From an uncultured archaeon (GTDB taxonomy: Archaea > Thermoproteota > Nitrososphaeria > Conexivisphaerales > CALBHZ01), in assembly GCA_937892815.1 (NCBI GenBank), contig CALBHZ010000002.1, positions 1 to 10,535 of the forward strand: DNA of 10,535 nucleotides. Direction: 5' to 3'. Within the stretch, counting starts at the first letter, position 1. Every line of letters begins with the position of its first letter. The translations under genes and the position numbers were made by a program. Of this stretch, positions 2,750 to 9,601 are shown piece after piece. The notes under the pieces are model-generated. The model was given only the letters and a program-made list of their open reading frames with translations. It made no database searches and was not told where the DNA came from.

Positions 2750-2756
2750 TTAAATA
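2750..2756 (+). promoter_or_regulatory. Probable TATA box for the pyrI-pyrE fusion gene
   Basis: TTAAATA is placed to start transcription about 25 bp downstream, near 2778. That leaves a leader of roughly a dozen bases holding a Shine-Dalgarno-like GGAG at 2781-2784, seven bases before the GTG start at 2792. The 63-bp gap after nrdG together with this box suggests the fusion gene is transcribed separately. Inferred from spacing only. Confidence 0.5.
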
Positions 2757-2791
2757 GAAATCCCTATTAACTTGAACGTAGGAGATCATAC

Positions 2792-3973
2792 GTGTTCGCG
2801 AAAGATAAGCTATTAGTTAGTAAAATAGAGAATGGGATAGTTATAGATCACATACCTCCATGTAGAGGTCTCGACGTCTTAAAGTTCTTAGATCCCGATC
2901 CAAGCGCAAGGGTGGTTGTAGCTAAAAACGTTAATAGTACGAAATACGGGAAGAAGGACTTAGTCAAGATAGAAGGGGAATACCTCACCTCTAGTCAGAT
3001 AGACGCATTGGCGTTAATCGCCCCTACATCTACCGTTAACATAATTGAGAATTGGGAGGTAAGGGAGAAGAAGGAGGTAAAGCCTCCTGAAGTTTTAGAG
3101 GGTATTTTAGAGTGTAGGAACCCCGCATGTGGGTCGAAAGGTCGAGAGAGTAGGTTCTCGGTTAAGCTAAAGGAGCCTATTGAGCATAGCTACTTCGAAT
3201 GTTTAGAGTGCGGCTTTAAGATCTTTTATCGAGATGCAATTGAAGAGATCATCAGAAAGGCATCGGCGGGCGTTTTAGTATCGATGGAAAAGGTGAGAAG
3301 GGAATTCTTAAGGCTTTTAATTAGTAAAGGGGCTTTAAGGCTTAATGGTCCCTTTAAGTTAAAAAGCGGAAGGTTAAGCCCTTACTTCATAAATCTAGGC
3401 GCTTTAACCGATGGAGAATCGTTGTCGAAGCTTAGGTGGATATTGGCCGGCTTCGCCTTATTGCTAGTTAAGGAAAAGGAAATAGAGGACTTCGATTTCG
3501 TATTCGGTCCGTCTTACAAGGGGATAAACCTTGCCGCTTTAACTTGCGAGGGATTAAGCGAGTACTTTGGGTTGAACAAGAGGTACCTATACGATAGGAA
3601 GGAGCCTAAGGGTTATGGAGATGTAGCGATGGACAAGCAGATAGTTGGGGCCGAATACTTTAAGCCAGCTCAAAGGATACTTATCGTAGACGATACCATT
3701 ACAACTGGTAAGACTAAGGAGGAATCTATTGAGAAATTGAAAAGCTTAGGTGAACATAAAGTAGTTGGAATTATAATCGGCGTAGATAGGCAGGAAGTTG
3801 CTGAAGGAGGAAAGAGCGCCGTTCAATATATAGAGGAGAGGTTCGGAGTGAAGGTATGTCCTATCCTAACGGCTAAGACGATATATTCGATGATTAAAAG
3901 GGATTTGAAGGAAGAAGATAGGAGAGCATGGATAGAATACTATCGAAAGTACGGCGTTGTAAAGTTAGAGTAA
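2792..3973 (+). CDS. PyrI-PyrE fusion: aspartate carbamoyltransferase regulatory chain joined to orotate phosphoribosyltransferase
   Basis: Two pyrimidine-synthesis domains in one 393-residue protein. Residues 5-95 match the PyrI nucleotide-binding domain (LLVSKIENGIVIDHIP, KKDLVKIEGEYL, ALIAP). Residues 106-146 are its zinc domain with Cys 108, 113, 137 and 140, the CX4C/CX2C spacing known in E. coli PyrI. After a short helical link, residues 166-370 are PyrE: FKLKSGRLSPYF, GPSYKGINLAA, RKEPKGYG, the PRPP-binding loop RILIVDDTITTGKT (296-309), and GVDRQE. PyrI binds effector nucleotides and needs catalytic PyrB, which is not in the window; PyrE converts orotate and PRPP to OMP. All key residues of both halves are present, so both are probably active. 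The GTG start has a good GGAG site. No stop or frameshift lies between the domains. Confidence 0.93.
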   Translation: MFAKDKLLVSKIENGIVIDHIPPCRGLDVLKFLDPDPSARVVVAKNVNSTKYGKKDLVKIEGEYLTSSQIDALALIAPTSTVNIIENWEVREKKEVKPPEVLEGILECRNPACGSKGRESRFSVKLKEPIEHSYFECLECGFKIFYRDAIEEIIRKASAGVLVSMEKVRREFLRLLISKGALRLNGPFKLKSGRLSPYFINLGALTDGESLSKLRWILAGFALLLVKEKEIEDFDFVFGPSYKGINLAALTCEGLSEYFGLNKRYLYDRKEPKGYGDVAMDKQIVGAEYFKPAQRILIVDDTITTGKTKEESIEKLKSLGEHKVVGIIIGVDRQEVAEGGKSAVQYIEERFGVKVCPILTAKTIYSMIKRDLKEEDRRAWIEYYRKYGVVKLE

Positions 3974-4095: not shown

Positions 4096-5242
4096 ATGAA
4101 GATTCTATTGGTAACGGAATGGCATCCCTTTAGTATAGGAGGTGTGCAATCACATGTTAGAGATCTAGCTTTTAACCTCTCGAAATTAGGCCATGAAGTG
4201 TTCATAATCTCTAAGGCATATAATAGCTCAGCGTTTGAAAGGAAGGGGATAAAGCACATTACCGTTAAACCTCTTTTAGCACCATTAAATATCGTACTAA
4301 TCCCTCCAAATTACTTTAGCTTGAAGGAGGCGATAATGAAATTGAAGCCCGATATTATCCACGCTCATCACGCTTTCACTTTCATGCCTTTGTTATCGTT
4401 AAGCATAGGGGAGGCATGCAACGTACCTAGGATCTTAACTAATCATAGCATAACGCTCGGTTTTGACTACGATTGGCTGTGGAGACCTTCATCTTATCTT
4501 CTTTTCATACATCGTTACTACATCTCCAAAGCTCAGGTAATTGTATCGGTAAGCAACGTAGCGGATAGGTTCATTAGCAAGTTCGTCGAGAAAAACGTGA
4601 TTAGGAAGGTTATACCTAATGCCGTTGATGCGGATAGGTTTAAACCCCCTAAGCAAGAGCCAGTAGAACCCTTAATCCTCTTCATAGGAAGGCTTGTCTA
4701 TCGAAAGGGAGCTCATGTGTTGCTTAGAGCTTTTCGCTACGTTGTAAAGGAAAAACCTCAAGCTAAGCTATTGATCGTTGGGAAGGGGTATATGGAGCCG
4801 ATTTTGAAGGTATTGGCACAGAAATTAGATGTTCAAGATAAAGTTGAATTTAGGGGGATGTATACCTGAAAGTGATAAAGAGGAAATGTATAGGAAAGCA
4901 TGTATAGTAGCGGTTCCCAGCGTTTACGGAGAAAGCTTTGGTTTAGTAGCCCTAGAAGCCATGTCATCGGGAAGGCCCGTCGTAGCGTCTAACGTAGGAG
5001 GTTTAAACGAGATAATCGATCAGGGTAACGACGGGCTTTTAGTTAAAACGGGTTCCCATAAAGAGCTAGCGGATGCGATAATTTCGCTTCTAAGCGACGA
5101 TAAGAAGCGTAAAAAGATGTCTTTGAAGGCTAGGGAAAAGGTCCTCAAAAAGTACTCATGGGACATCGTAATAAGGGATTTGCTGAAAGTCTATTCGCAA
5201 GCCCTAGGTAAGCAGGTTACAGCGCTTTTAAATAGGCGTTAA
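4096..5242 (+). pseudogene. GT4-family glycosyltransferase, interrupted by a single-base frameshift
   Basis: Retaining GT-B glycosyltransferase of family GT4, which would transfer a sugar from an activated donor, probably for glycolipid, glycan or glycoprotein synthesis at the inner membrane face; donor and acceptor cannot be told. The first part (4096-4869) has the N-terminal Rossmann domain with GGVQSHVRDLA, HAHHAF and NHSITLGF, then the start of the donor domain (IPNAVDADRF, FIGRLVYRKGAHVLL). It ends prematurely just after EFRG. The second part continues in another frame with CIPESD, the EX7E donor motif (ESFGLVALE) and the normal C-terminus. Dropping one G from the five at 4853-4857 restores a continuous 381-residue protein of usual GT4 length. 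Both halves are otherwise well conserved, so the shift is either recent, a sequencing error, or recoded. Confidence 0.88.
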
Positions 5243-5639: not shown

Positions 5640-6071
5640 TTAAGCTTTACTTCCCCATTCGCTCATTAAAATTACGACTAACTCTCTTACGAACCTTCCG
5701 TACTCCTTAACCTTGCTCTTAGATATAGAGCTTCTTTTCGGACAGAGAGGATCTACCTCTACTTTATCCTCCTTTACATTATAGATTAGGGGATAGAGCC
5801 TACATCCTAAAGGCCTATAGGGATAAATCTTACACGCCTTAGTTTCCTCGTCTAGAAATACGCACTTACCGTTTACGTTTTTAAGTTTGGGGATTTCGCC
5901 ACCCCTGTCGATGAAATAGTCCTCACGATATCCTAGGGATTTTATCCTGGAGATGTCTAATCGCGTTAATAACATTTCGGTTTTAAAACAGCATTTACCA
6001 CAATACTCATTATCGGAGATTTTGCAGTCTATCGGTAAATGTTCATTCAATAAACGGTAGTAATCCTTCAT
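5640..6071 (-). CDS. YkgJ-like cysteine-cluster protein
   Basis: A 143-residue protein of the YkgJ/UPF0153 type, thought to bind zinc or an iron-sulfur cluster. Eight cysteines are visible: Cys16, then CGKCC at 24-28, Cys70, Cys80, Cys90 and Cys110. The segment CKIYPYRPLGCRLYPL is the family's best mark. Biochemical function is not established for the family; some members occur near methyltransferases or flagellar genes, which is not the case here. Its ATG overlaps the stop of the upstream GTPase (ATGA), so the two are almost surely translated from one message. Confidence 0.88.
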   Translation of the reverse strand: MKDYYRLLNEHLPIDCKISDNEYCGKCCFKTEMLLTRLDISRIKSLGYREDYFIDRGGEIPKLKNVNGKCVFLDEETKACKIYPYRPLGCRLYPLIYNVKEDKVEVDPLCPKRSSISKSKVKEYGRFVRELVVILMSEWGSKA

Positions 6072-6868
6072 TTTTCAACTAATAAGGCTTCCTCAGGAGG
6101 TATGTAAAAGGAAAGCTTAGCTTTGTGGTAATCTCTTATTACATTTCTGGCCGCCTCCTCTACTAAAGGCTCTCCTCCCTTCTTATACCTCCATCCTCTC
6201 TTAATCGCTATAAGCTCCAATACCTTGTACGGATCTCTCTCACTTATCCCATAGGCATCTAAAACGCACTTAGAGTTATACTTCATGGCGGTCTCCAATA
6301 ATAACATAGCGGCAGGTATTGGATCCTTAAGCTCTTCAGGGCTCTTCCCTCTAATTACCGATTCAAATAAACCTCCTTCAATCGGTATAATTCCAGGAGT
6401 ATCTAAGAGGTAGATCCCTTCTTCGATCTTTAAAAGCTGAATTCCTCTAGTATATCCAGGGCTTCCAGGTATAGGGCTCGTAGGAGCGCTCTTCTTCCCC
6501 TTTAACGCGTTGATTACGCTAGATTTTCCTACCTTGGGATAGCCGACTACCGCTACCCTTAAGGGCCTTTTATCCGTACTGCACCTTATCACCTTCTTAA
6601 GCTCCTCTACTCCTCTTTTACTTAAAGCGGAAAAGCATACAACTCTGACGTCAGCATCTGTTAATATTTCCTTCCACTTAAGAGCCACCCTTTTAGGTAC
6701 TAAATCGATCTTATTTAATACGAGAATGAGGTTTTTATTGTACTTAAACGTCATTTCCTCTAGCTTCCTACTTCTAGTACCTATCGGGTTTCTCGAATCG
6801 AGTACTTCGAGCACTACGTTCGCTTTTTTAACGATGTCCTTTATTAAAGACCATTTGGCTAAACGCAT
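6068..6868 (-). CDS. Circularly permuted GTPase of the RbgA/YlqF (YawG) type, probable ribosome assembly factor
   Basis: The 266-residue protein has its G motifs in permuted order: DSRNP at 24-28, G4 NKID at 52-55, G5 SALS at 80-83, G1 GYPKVGKSS at 109-117, a Thr-containing G2 near 140 (PGYTRG), and G3 DTPG at 156-159. This G4-G5-G1-G2-G3 order defines the family that includes bacterial RbgA and eukaryotic nucleolar GTPases, which act in large-subunit assembly; the same role is inferred here. The C-terminal helical part (LLETAMKY, AIKRGWRYKKGGEP) matches the RNA-binding tail of these proteins. It is the first gene of a leftward operon with the YkgJ-like and cupin genes. A TATA-like element lies about 30 bp upstream. 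Confidence 0.92.
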   Translation of the reverse strand: MRLAKWSLIKDIVKKANVVLEVLDSRNPIGTRSRKLEEMTFKYNKNLILVLNKIDLVPKRVALKWKEILTDADVRVVCFSALSKRGVEELKKVIRCSTDKRPLRVAVVGYPKVGKSSVINALKGKKSAPTSPIPGSPGYTRGIQLLKIEEGIYLLDTPGIIPIEGGLFESVIRGKSPEELKDPIPAAMLLLETAMKYNSKCVLDAYGISERDPYKVLELIAIKRGWRYKKGGEPLVEEAARNVIRDYHKAKLSFYIPPEEALLVEK

Positions 6869-6977: not shown

Positions 6978-7045
6978 GGGGCCGATGATGAACAGAGGCC
7001 GCGCGAGCTAGTAGCTATGAGCTAGTGGGTGAGCTCTGAGGCTCG
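6978..7045 (+). ncRNA. Candidate C/D box sRNA (2'-O-methylation guide)
   Basis: Archaeal C/D sRNAs bind L7Ae, Nop5 and fibrillarin and guide ribose methylation of rRNA or tRNA. Seen here: a perfect C box ATGATGA at 6985-6991, a D box CTGA at 7036-7039, and a terminal stem pairing GGGCC (6979-6983) with GGCTC (7040-7044), four Watson-Crick pairs plus one G-U. Length of about 65-68 nt is typical. The segment is distinctly GC-rich in AT-rich surroundings, a known sign of structured RNA in thermophiles, and a TATA-like box sits at the right distance. Weak point: internal C'/D' boxes are degenerate (CGAG near 7004, CTATGA at 7015-7020) and the middle is built of alternating AGCTA/TAGCT copies. Target not identified. 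Confidence 0.55.
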
Positions 7046-7785
7046 TCGTTTTTCGTTAAAATTTCAATAGCTTTAGAAAACGTTCTTAACGCTTCATCTT
7101 TAGAGGCCACTCCTATAGCTACGCTCTTAACAATATCTTGTTTAAAGATCCAGCTTAGAGCTTTTTCAACATCTAACCTACCCGCTCCTAATACCTTCTT
7201 AGCTATTACCGGCTTCTTAACTTCCCTAAGCATCTTAATTACCTCTTCCTTTCCCTTTACGAAGATGCCGGCGTAATTTAATGGAACCATTACTACTTCG
7301 ACTTCAGGTATAGGTAGAATTCTCGGAAGGGATTTAATGGGATTATGTAAAGCTACTCCCGTTACTACGTTTAGCTTTTCCTTAACGTTACTCAGTAAGT
7401 CCGAGATTTCCGAGCTAGACATCGATTCCGATTGCGCTGCGTGTAATAGCACGATAGAGGGATCGAGCTCTTGAAGTTGACTTAAACTGCCAATGGGGTC
7501 TTCCGGAGATAGAGAGGCAACAATGATGGGTTTCAGCCTGGTAGCTCTAGATGCCTCAATAATAGAGTTAATTAAGAAATCGTAAGCTATTAGCTGAACT
7601 CCTATTACGCCTAACTTAAAACAATAGGCCAATATATCTACGATGTTCTTCGGATTTAAAACGAATTCATAATAGTACTCATGGGATTTTTCAAATTGAC
7701 CTGCCGCTAAAAAGGGAGAGGTGCCGATTAAAACCCTAGGTATCTCCACCTCTTTAATTTTAGCTTTAGGGACCGCTAACTCCAT
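7015..7785 (-). CDS. TIM-barrel protein distantly like aldo/keto reductases, function unknown
   Basis: A 256-residue soluble protein with alternating strand and helix segments. Resemblance to the aldo/keto reductase fold: an early strand with IGTSPFLAAGQF (residues 20-31), IVLLHAA (111-117) at the place of the usual barrel histidine strand, and SVAIGVASKDEALRTF near the end, like the family's cofactor-site helix. The catalytic tetrad seems absent: the segment GVIGVQLIAYDF stands where the Asp/Tyr signature is expected, and IIVASLSPED where the Lys strand normally ends in K. I infer a non-redox or binding role but cannot name it. The last ten codons, a Ser/Pro-rich tail, overlap the candidate sRNA on the other strand. 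It has its own promoter and is separated from the GTPase operon by 146 bp. Confidence 0.75.
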   Translation of the reverse strand: MELAVPKAKIKEVEIPRVLIGTSPFLAAGQFEKSHEYYYEFVLNPKNIVDILAYCFKLGVIGVQLIAYDFLINSIIEASRATRLKPIIVASLSPEDPIGSLSQLQELDPSIVLLHAAQSESMSSSEISDLLSNVKEKLNVVTGVALHNPIKSLPRILPIPEVEVVMVPLNYAGIFVKGKEEVIKMLREVKKPVIAKKVLGAGRLDVEKALSWIFKQDIVKSVAIGVASKDEALRTFSKAIEILTKNDEPQSSPTSS

Positions 7786-9178: not shown

Positions 9179-9601
9179 ATGCGCTTTATAAGCTATAACG
9201 TCTGCGGCTCTAAACTTAGGAAGGTTAAAAGGCTTTTATTGTATAGCGAGTGCTTAGAGGAGGAATGTCCGTTATTAATCGATAAATATTCGAGAGATCG
9301 GATCGCTCTCTCGGTTTGTATGGAGGAGCTCCATCTAAATATGGTTGGGTTTAAGTTAGCGGGAATGTTGAGAAGATGTCCTCCTGAGGAGATGGTCGTG
9401 TTAGCGGTAGATGGCTCTCCCCACTGCGTTCAAATGTTCTACGCTGTCGAGGAAGCTTTGAAGGTCGTGGGCGATTATAAAGGGAAGGTGATATACCTAG
9501 CCGTTAGCGAGTGTAAGGCAGAACAGGTAGATCCTGAAATCGTTAAAACCTCGAGATTCCTTACGAAGGTAAAGAAGCTAGCATCGTCTAGGACGAAATG
9601 A
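9179..9601 (+). CDS. Conserved-looking cysteine-rich hypothetical protein
   Basis: A 140-residue soluble protein I cannot assign to a named family. Seven cysteines are seen, at 9, 25, 30, 47, 67, 83 and 112, with histidines at 52 and 82. The clearest motif is VDGSPHCVQMFYAVEEA (residues 77-93), after a predicted strand (EMVVLAV), and a final strand KVIYLAVSECKA; this looks like an alpha/beta fold with a cysteine-lined site, suggesting metal or iron-sulfur binding or thiol chemistry. Base composition and codon use match the neighbouring intact genes, and there are no internal disruptions, so it is probably a functioning gene. The ATG at 9179 is the first in frame. It is the last intact gene before the degraded region. 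Confidence 0.75.
   Translation: MRFISYNVCGSKLRKVKRLLLYSECLEEECPLLIDKYSRDRIALSVCMEELHLNMVGFKLAGMLRRCPPEEMVVLAVDGSPHCVQMFYAVEEALKVVGDYKGKVIYLAVSECKAEQVDPEIVKTSRFLTKVKKLASSRTK

Follow-up and report, generated by a model that had tools for sequence, protein, structure and literature searches.

What does an allosteric regulatory chain do when it is built into an enzyme other than the one it is known to regulate? ATCase with its PyrI chain is a classic model of allostery. In the window, the 10,535-nucleotide stretch of DNA from an uncultured archaeon that is analyzed here, PyrI is joined to the orotate phosphoribosyltransferase (OPRT) PyrE. The initial annotation of this DNA had claimed a PyrI with all four zinc cysteines fused in one gene to a complete OPRT with an intact PRPP loop, and had suggested that the fusion might either tether the OPRT to PyrB or place OMP synthesis under nucleotide control. 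The structural part of this description is borne out. The gene is a single open reading frame without an internal stop, both domains are matched, all four cysteines are found, and the OPRT part exceeds its family cut-off and contains the DRKEPKGYGD loop as well as VDDTITTG (residues 299-306), the PRPP motif. The coordinates of these features are collected in Table 1.

Table 1. Positions of the fusion gene, its protein parts, and its upstream elements in the window, together with two loci in which the fused PyrI is decaying.
Feature	Position	Strand	Basis
Gene of the PyrI-PyrE fusion (393 aa), from the GTG start through the stop codon	2792..3973	+	Open reading frame, Pfam/NCBIfam, homologues
Archaeal TATA-box-like TTAAATAG, upstream of the gene	2750..2757	+	Reading by eye
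GGAG, Shine-Dalgarno-like, 7 bases 5' of GTG	2781..2784	+	Reading by eye
PyrI part, residues 5-141, allosteric and zinc domains	2804..3214	+	PF01948, TIGR00240; 1pg5_B, 2yww_A, and 1d09_B by sequence; Foldseek 1pg5_B
Zinc cysteines C108, C113, C137, C140 (CX4C ... CX2C)	3113..3211	+	Invariant in 85 aligned fusions and in 121/121
Helix after the zinc domain and linker, residues 142-164	3215..3283	+	Predicted helix 146-157, then loop
OPRT part, residues 165-393	3284..3970	+	TIGR00336 over cut-off; yeast and E. coli OPRT; Foldseek 2prz_A
OPRT catalytic loop DRKEPKGYGD, residues 268-277	3593..3622	+	Invariant residues in 85 fusions
PRPP-binding motif LIVDDTITTGKTK, residues 297-309	3680..3718	+	Invariant residues in 85 fusions
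Decaying fused PyrI, two related Bathyarchaeota	L059 1-400; L052 1854-3173		

The two halves of the protein were assigned by family models and by structure. PF01948 (Pfam PyrI) matches residues 8-97 with 101.3 bits against a cut-off of 25, and the NCBIfam model TIGR00240 matches residues 5-141 with 127 bits, short of the 148.55 required by its equivalog cut-off. The zinc-domain model PF02748 gives no match to the window copy at an E-value of 1e-3 and is found in many homologues. For the second half, TIGR00336 (pyrE) matches residues 175-364 with 115.6 bits, above the cut-off of 106.8, and a Pfam search of the reading frame detects no carbamoyltransferase domain. Yeast and E. coli OPRT match the window protein with E-values of 7.5e-33 and 2.1e-31, and 2yzk, which we take to be the archaeal OPRT of A. 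pernix, matches weakly (9.5e-9). An AlphaFold2 model from 85 sequences has a mean pLDDT of 83.9, with a mean of 70 in the linker block 151-160. Its pTM of 0.74 makes the predicted arrangement of the domains moderately certain; the model is a single chain, and inter-chain contacts lie outside its scope. Foldseek relates the OPRT half to yeast OPRT (2prz_A) and the PyrI half to the Sulfolobus ATCase regulatory chain (1pg5_B), with TM scores by target of 0.85 and 0.73, respectively.

The OPRT part retains the residues expected of an enzyme. Across the 85 fusions, D268, R269, K270, E271, K273, Y275, and D277 of the DRKEPKGYGD loop are invariant, as are the catalytic lysine K243 and D300, D301, T305, G306, and K309 of the PRPP motif. 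The catalytic role of the loop is presumed from bacterial OPRT, and we likewise take LIVDDTITTGKTK to be the PRPP-binding motif. In the window genome, which is 86.74% complete, one PyrI and one PyrE exceed their cut-offs, and both lie within the fusion gene; the fused OPRT is the sole PyrE above the family cut-off. Together, the conserved loop and PRPP motif and the lack of another PyrE over the cut-off in this genome support the prediction that the OPRT part is a functional enzyme. Upstream of the gene, TTAAATAG resembles what we assume to be the archaeal TATA box, and a scan for bacterial-type promoters and terminators found nothing exceeding shuffled sequences.

Two kinds of artifact were weighed. 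A missed stop or an assembler join would be suggested by the fragmentation of the metagenome-assembled genome (304 contigs, 3.43% contamination) and by the count of zero full-length matches, among the matches listed, in the 299 other sampled genomes of the class. However, the best 120 of 714 homologues each align over at least 90% of the query, 26 loci and the one-contig genome G326 show the same fused frame, and the composition of the contig agrees with its bin, so that an artifact of this kind is extremely improbable and was rejected. The other sampled genomes of the order are without the fusion, and we therefore also considered that the window contig may derive from a close relative and be mis-binned. 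Its GC content of 0.416 falls within the 0.39-0.44 of six other contigs from the same bin and is unlike that of the Caldarchaeum/Aigarchaeota loci L032 and L034 (0.53-0.55). Tetranucleotide correlations are 0.47-0.69 to the six bin contigs versus 0.09-0.45 to ten loci of named relatives. Because the composition matches the bin and not the Caldarchaeum/Aigarchaeota loci, mis-binning is unlikely, although the contig may still come from a close relative. The initial annotation had looked to close relatives for the reality of the fusion, and on this point the outcome is mixed: among the matches listed, none of the 299 other class genomes has a full-length copy, but other assemblies hold one copy at 97% identity and seven at 71-77%.

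Other genes of the window were also inspected. At 99-2728 lies an NrdD with a partial ATP-cone match, overlapped by four bases by an NrdG2 activase; the catalytic part of NrdD is 59-61% identical to that of G045 and G049 and at most 34% identical to those of the order's genomes searched. It was tried as a marker of descent and is uninformative, its best match being to Bathyarchaeota-type genomes, as is the GTPase at 6068-6868, for which 21 other genomes searched gave no full-length match. A GT4-type glycosyltransferase at 4096-5242 runs over two overlapping frames (4096-4869 and 4829-5242), a split that reflects a frameshift or an assembly error. The reading frames at 7015-7785 (-) and 9179-9601 (+) have no match at an E-value of 1e-3 in Pfam, NCBIfam, or PHROGs.

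The fusion extends well beyond the window. A protein search returned 714 matches, scored among the 7,998 candidates with the most shared words; few of the best 120 carry names, and those that do come from Caldarchaeum, Aigarchaeota, Bathyarchaeia/Bathyarchaeota, and one source labeled Nitrososphaerales. Of 98 loci from a scan of named genomes, 80 were retained, and 61 of these (L031-L091) were analyzed in detail. The search for the same domain order in other archaea, proposed in the initial annotation, thus found the fused frame in 26 of 61 loci, these 26 belonging to Caldarchaeum/Aigarchaeota and Bathyarchaeota (L031-L053, L057, L060, and L054, which is truncated by a contig end and counted as fused). 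In 33 loci PyrE occurs without a joined PyrI; in L055 a contig end precedes the PyrI part, and in L056 the fusion is split across two frames. In a phylum-wide sample of 398 genomes, eight, including the window's own, match at E <= 1e-60, all nearly at full length, and G326, which is 99% complete in one contig, carries the fusion. In a class-wide sample of 300 genomes, the only full-length match among the matches listed is in the window's own genome, and of 14 same-order relatives searched for PF01948, one has it. No PyrI besides the fused copy was found in 11 of the 12 named fused genomes searched, Caldarchaeum-side genomes included; this search for a second PyrI covered whole genomes for these 12, besides the window genome, and elsewhere the stretch around PyrB. 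One genome, G045 (L035, L201, and L141), has an intact fusion together with a second PyrI and a second PyrE that groups with class-type OPRTs; the second pair may be real or may be bin contamination.

Phylogenies were calculated for each domain. The OPRT tree (62 rows) groups 25 fused rows in one clade (96/89), with L052 (fused) and L059 (PyrI mostly lost) as its sister pair; the unfused OPRTs of the Bathyarchaeote L061 (weak support, 91/53), Aenigmatarchaeota, and Micrarchaeota lie outside the fused clade. In the PyrI tree (44 rows), a branch (100/99) sets off all 26 fused PyrIs from the other rows, the four stand-alone Bathyarchaeota PyrIs among them, and a constraint that grouped four fused rows with these four was rejected (AU p 6e-56). 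The window copy groups with the Caldarchaeum side in both trees. These topologies fit a single fusion event, and we conclude that the fusion is real and old. Eight of nine pairs, none of which includes the window, have dN/dS values of 0.025-0.16 in the PyrI part and 0.042-0.18 in the PyrE part, with some dS values near saturation and the ninth pair not computable. Both domains thus appear to be under purifying selection in the pairs sampled.

We then examined which PyrI functions the fused domain could retain. The window protein and the best 120 of its 714 matches were aligned with 15 stand-alone PyrIs and E. coli PyrI, whose numbering is used here; the 121 fused sequences are related, so the counts are not independent events. 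D19, K56, K60, E62, and K94 are kept in all 121 fused proteins, H20 in 120, and N84 in 119, and the window protein carries D19, H20, K60, N84, and K94. We take H20, K56, E62, and K94 to belong to the nucleotide site. PMC6056424 links D19, V17, K60, N84, and I86 to this site. At position 89, 110 of the 121 have an aromatic residue; this residue is Trp in each of the 91 Bathyarchaeota-like rows, which were split from the 30 Caldarchaeum-like rows by homologue rank and not by name. The zinc domain presents a different picture at certain positions. Its four cysteines are kept throughout, and 119 of the 121 have N111. None of the 121 fused proteins has a basic residue at the r-Lys143 position, compared with 14 of 15 stand-alone PyrIs, and the r-Ile115 position holds I or V in 8 of 121 versus 15 of 15. 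At Tyr140, an aromatic residue occurs in 81 of 91 Bathyarchaeota-like rows, 4 of 30 Caldarchaeum-like rows, and all 15 stand-alone PyrIs. Ile115, Tyr140, and Lys143 presumably face PyrB in the E. coli enzyme.

A contact between PyrI and PyrB could be followed on the other side of the interface. According to PMC6056424, r-Asn111 is bonded to c-Glu109 in the R state, and replacing r-Asn111 with alanine abolishes both homotropic and heterotropic effects. Because this contact is documented and zinc-domain positions of the fused PyrI are changed, the Glu109 position was checked in PyrB. It is E or D in all 28 PyrBs that lie beside a stand-alone PyrI or PyrI-like gene (17 class loci, L002-L019 minus L011; L078, L079, L084, L089, L232, L240, and L241; and the four f2 loci L185, L186, L187, and L192). 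It is acidic in none of the five window and Caldarchaeum-side genomes, with Pro in the window genome (G000) and Val in the other four (G042, G043, G044, and G326); G326 was placed on the Caldarchaeum side by the genus code it shares with G354, whose match coordinates are those of L034. Seven of seven same-order f3/f4 genomes, in which PF01948 was searched for and not found, have P or A, and a one-residue insertion in the preceding loop is common to the window/Caldarchaeum-side and PyrI-less PyrBs. Among 20 fused Bathyarchaeota, which include G049 (an uncultured archaeon), 15 have an acid at the position and the other five have N, I, I, S, and S; without G648 (L055, fusion cut by the contig end) and G649 (L056, split frames), it is acidic in 13 of 18.

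In these counts, G647 enters both the set of 28 and the set of 20 because it has a fusion and a stand-alone PyrI, and G651 and G652, without a complete fusion, enter only the former. Genomes without a PyrB over the cut-off were omitted (for example, G041, G046, G638, and G645), as were the PyrB-like frames of L062, L063, and L065 (E, E, and P), since no PyrI was found in those loci. Handles with identical contig coordinates (G049/G598, G482/G636, and G043/G510) were merged by hand.

Gene neighborhood was compared as well. PyrB is found in 17 of the 18 class loci with a stand-alone PyrI, the exception being L011, and none was detected in the 26 fused loci, several of which are on short contigs. 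The PyrB of the window bin is on contig C94, with Pro at the Glu109 position. It is closest (up to 68%) to the PyrBs of f4 genomes that have no PyrI, so the change in PyrB may predate the fusion in the window lineage. In this lineage, the documented contact is lost on the PyrB side and PyrI positions are changed, with the sensor site intact and N111 kept. The converse case was observed in the same-order f2 loci, in which a PyrI-like gene adjoins PyrB: the four zinc-domain cysteines, N111, I/V115, Y140, and K/R143 are kept in four of four, and the allosteric D19, H20, and K60 in none.

Our results allow a function to be proposed. The gene product would be an OPRT with a built-in PyrI nucleotide sensor: ATP, CTP, or UTP would bind to the PyrI domain, and the signal would pass through the short helix and linker to the dimeric OPRT, setting OMP synthesis. 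Pyrimidine feedback would then act at the OPRT step in cis and not at ATCase in trans. Nucleotide control of OMP synthesis, the second suggestion of the initial annotation, is favored because the nucleotide site is conserved and the fused OPRT is the only PyrE over the cut-off. Judged on conservation, neighborhood, and phylogeny, we put at even odds the claim that nucleotides bound by the PyrI module control the OPRT in cis. The conserved site, the changes at Lys143 and Ile115, the lost Glu109, the fused loci without a detected PyrB, the trees, and the dN/dS values would all agree with it; the retention of r-Asn111, the partner of c-Glu109, and, in Bathyarchaeota, the acid of most PyrBs and the status of the fused copy as sole PyrI in nearly all named genomes searched would speak against it. 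For the window lineage and the Caldarchaeum side, our preferred reading is that PyrI has changed its client. It would have left PyrB to regulate OPRT in cis, and feedback would now act at OMP synthesis and no longer at the first committed step. Bathyarchaeota would represent an intermediate, in which PyrB usually retains the contact residue, the fused protein may still dock, and the sensor may serve both enzymes. We assign this reading a probability of about 0.4.

The fused PyrI could instead assemble with PyrB as its regulatory chain, placing ATCase and OPRT in one particle with carbamoyl aspartate feedback retained. The retained r-Asn111, the 15 acidic PyrBs in fused Bathyarchaeota, and the 11 of 12 genomes with no other PyrI are as such an assembly would have them. 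Two related Bathyarchaeota loci also bear on this point. L052 (G647) carries the fusion and a separate PyrI beside PyrB, and by eye K60, N84, and K94 are replaced by T, T, and E in its fused PyrI. In its close relative L059 (G651), a stop precedes the OPRT and only a short PyrI stub is left, again with a stand-alone PyrI beside PyrB. These losses indicate decay of the fused sensor in genomes that also have a canonical ATCase pair, and we counted them as possible support for cis control, where another feedback point would make the sensor dispensable. The decay is consistent with one feedback point being sufficient and fits equally well with a fused PyrI that otherwise serves PyrB. The replacement of the acid by P or V in the window and four Caldarchaeum-side PyrBs, as in PyrI-less relatives, argues against assembly with PyrB, as do the r-Lys143 position, changed in 121 of 121 fused proteins, the r-Ile115 position, changed in 113 of 121, and the 26 fused loci with no PyrB found. 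Overall, we consider assembly with PyrB unlikely. The tether suggested in the initial annotation is mostly disfavored in the window lineage, given its altered PyrI zinc domain, its lost Glu109 contact, and the fused loci without PyrB; it is weak for the window genome and plausible in Bathyarchaeota, whose PyrBs and lone fused PyrIs are still compatible with it.

The PyrI part could also be a structural add-on that dimerizes or stabilizes OPRT, with nucleotides bound for folding or without catalytic effect. PyrI and OPRT each form dimers, so their symmetries could fit. Related OPRTs occur without PyrI in Aenigmatarchaeota, Micrarchaeota, and some Bathyarchaeota, which indicates that this type of OPRT does not need PyrI, and L059 has shed most of the domain. 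However, the conservation of K56, K60, and K94 in all 121 aligned fused proteins, and of N84 in all but two of them, is more than a scaffold seems to need, and K60, N84, and K94 are lost in L052, from a genome with a second PyrI. A purely structural role is therefore rather improbable.

The change of client that we favor can be set beside known arrangements. Like the PyrI regulatory chain (PF01948/PF02748, TIGR00240), the fused domain has the fold, the nucleotide-site residues, and the four zinc cysteines; unlike it, the domain is fused ahead of PyrE, scores below the TIGR00240 cut-off, is changed at Lys143 and Ile115, and occurs in a genome whose PyrB lacks the Glu109 acid. The OPRT part agrees with PyrE of the E. 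coli/yeast type (TIGR00336) in exceeding the cut-off and in its loop and PRPP motif, and its closest solved structures are the yeast and E. coli enzymes, but it has an N-terminal PyrI, and Y275, invariant in the 85 fusions, takes the place of a His found in the loops of the bacterial and yeast enzymes. The PyrB-PyrI fusion (NF009916, PRK13376) also places PyrI within a longer pyrimidine enzyme; NF009916, however, joins PyrI to its own client ATCase, whereas the window protein joins it to another enzyme. In the bifunctional PyrF-PyrE protein (NF004034), OPRT is likewise joined to a second pyrimidine protein, but that partner is the next enzyme of the pathway and the partner in the window is a regulatory module. 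The 12 NCBIfam families that match the window protein include models of PyrB-PyrI and PyrF-PyrE fusions and none of PyrI-PyrE. We found no description of a PyrI-PyrE fusion in the open-licence literature, in keeping with the initial annotation, which had called it apparently uncharacterized. The component families are known; what appears to be new is their joining in one protein, together with the apparent move of PyrI to another client.

Other arrangements of PyrE were seen in the loci surveyed. In L077 (9200-10618) and L088 (9206-10657), an archaeal OMP decarboxylase is joined ahead of a related OPRT, in the known PyrF-PyrE order. Three f3 genomes (G008, L213/L229; G002, L214/L228; and G005, L216/L227) have an adjacent pair of PyrE-like genes, one over and one below the cut-off.

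Among the matches listed, homologues of the window protein are named either orotate phosphoribosyltransferase or aspartate carbamoyltransferase regulatory subunit, and each name hides half of a PyrI-PyrE protein. The proteins and loci described here provide a testable series, from PyrI unfused, through fused with the PyrB contact kept and fused with the contact lost, to decayed. If the change of client is correct, PyrI on another enzyme would illustrate the way in which an allosteric module passes from one enzyme to another, and the E. coli scheme would be no guide to the control of pyrimidine synthesis in these archaea.
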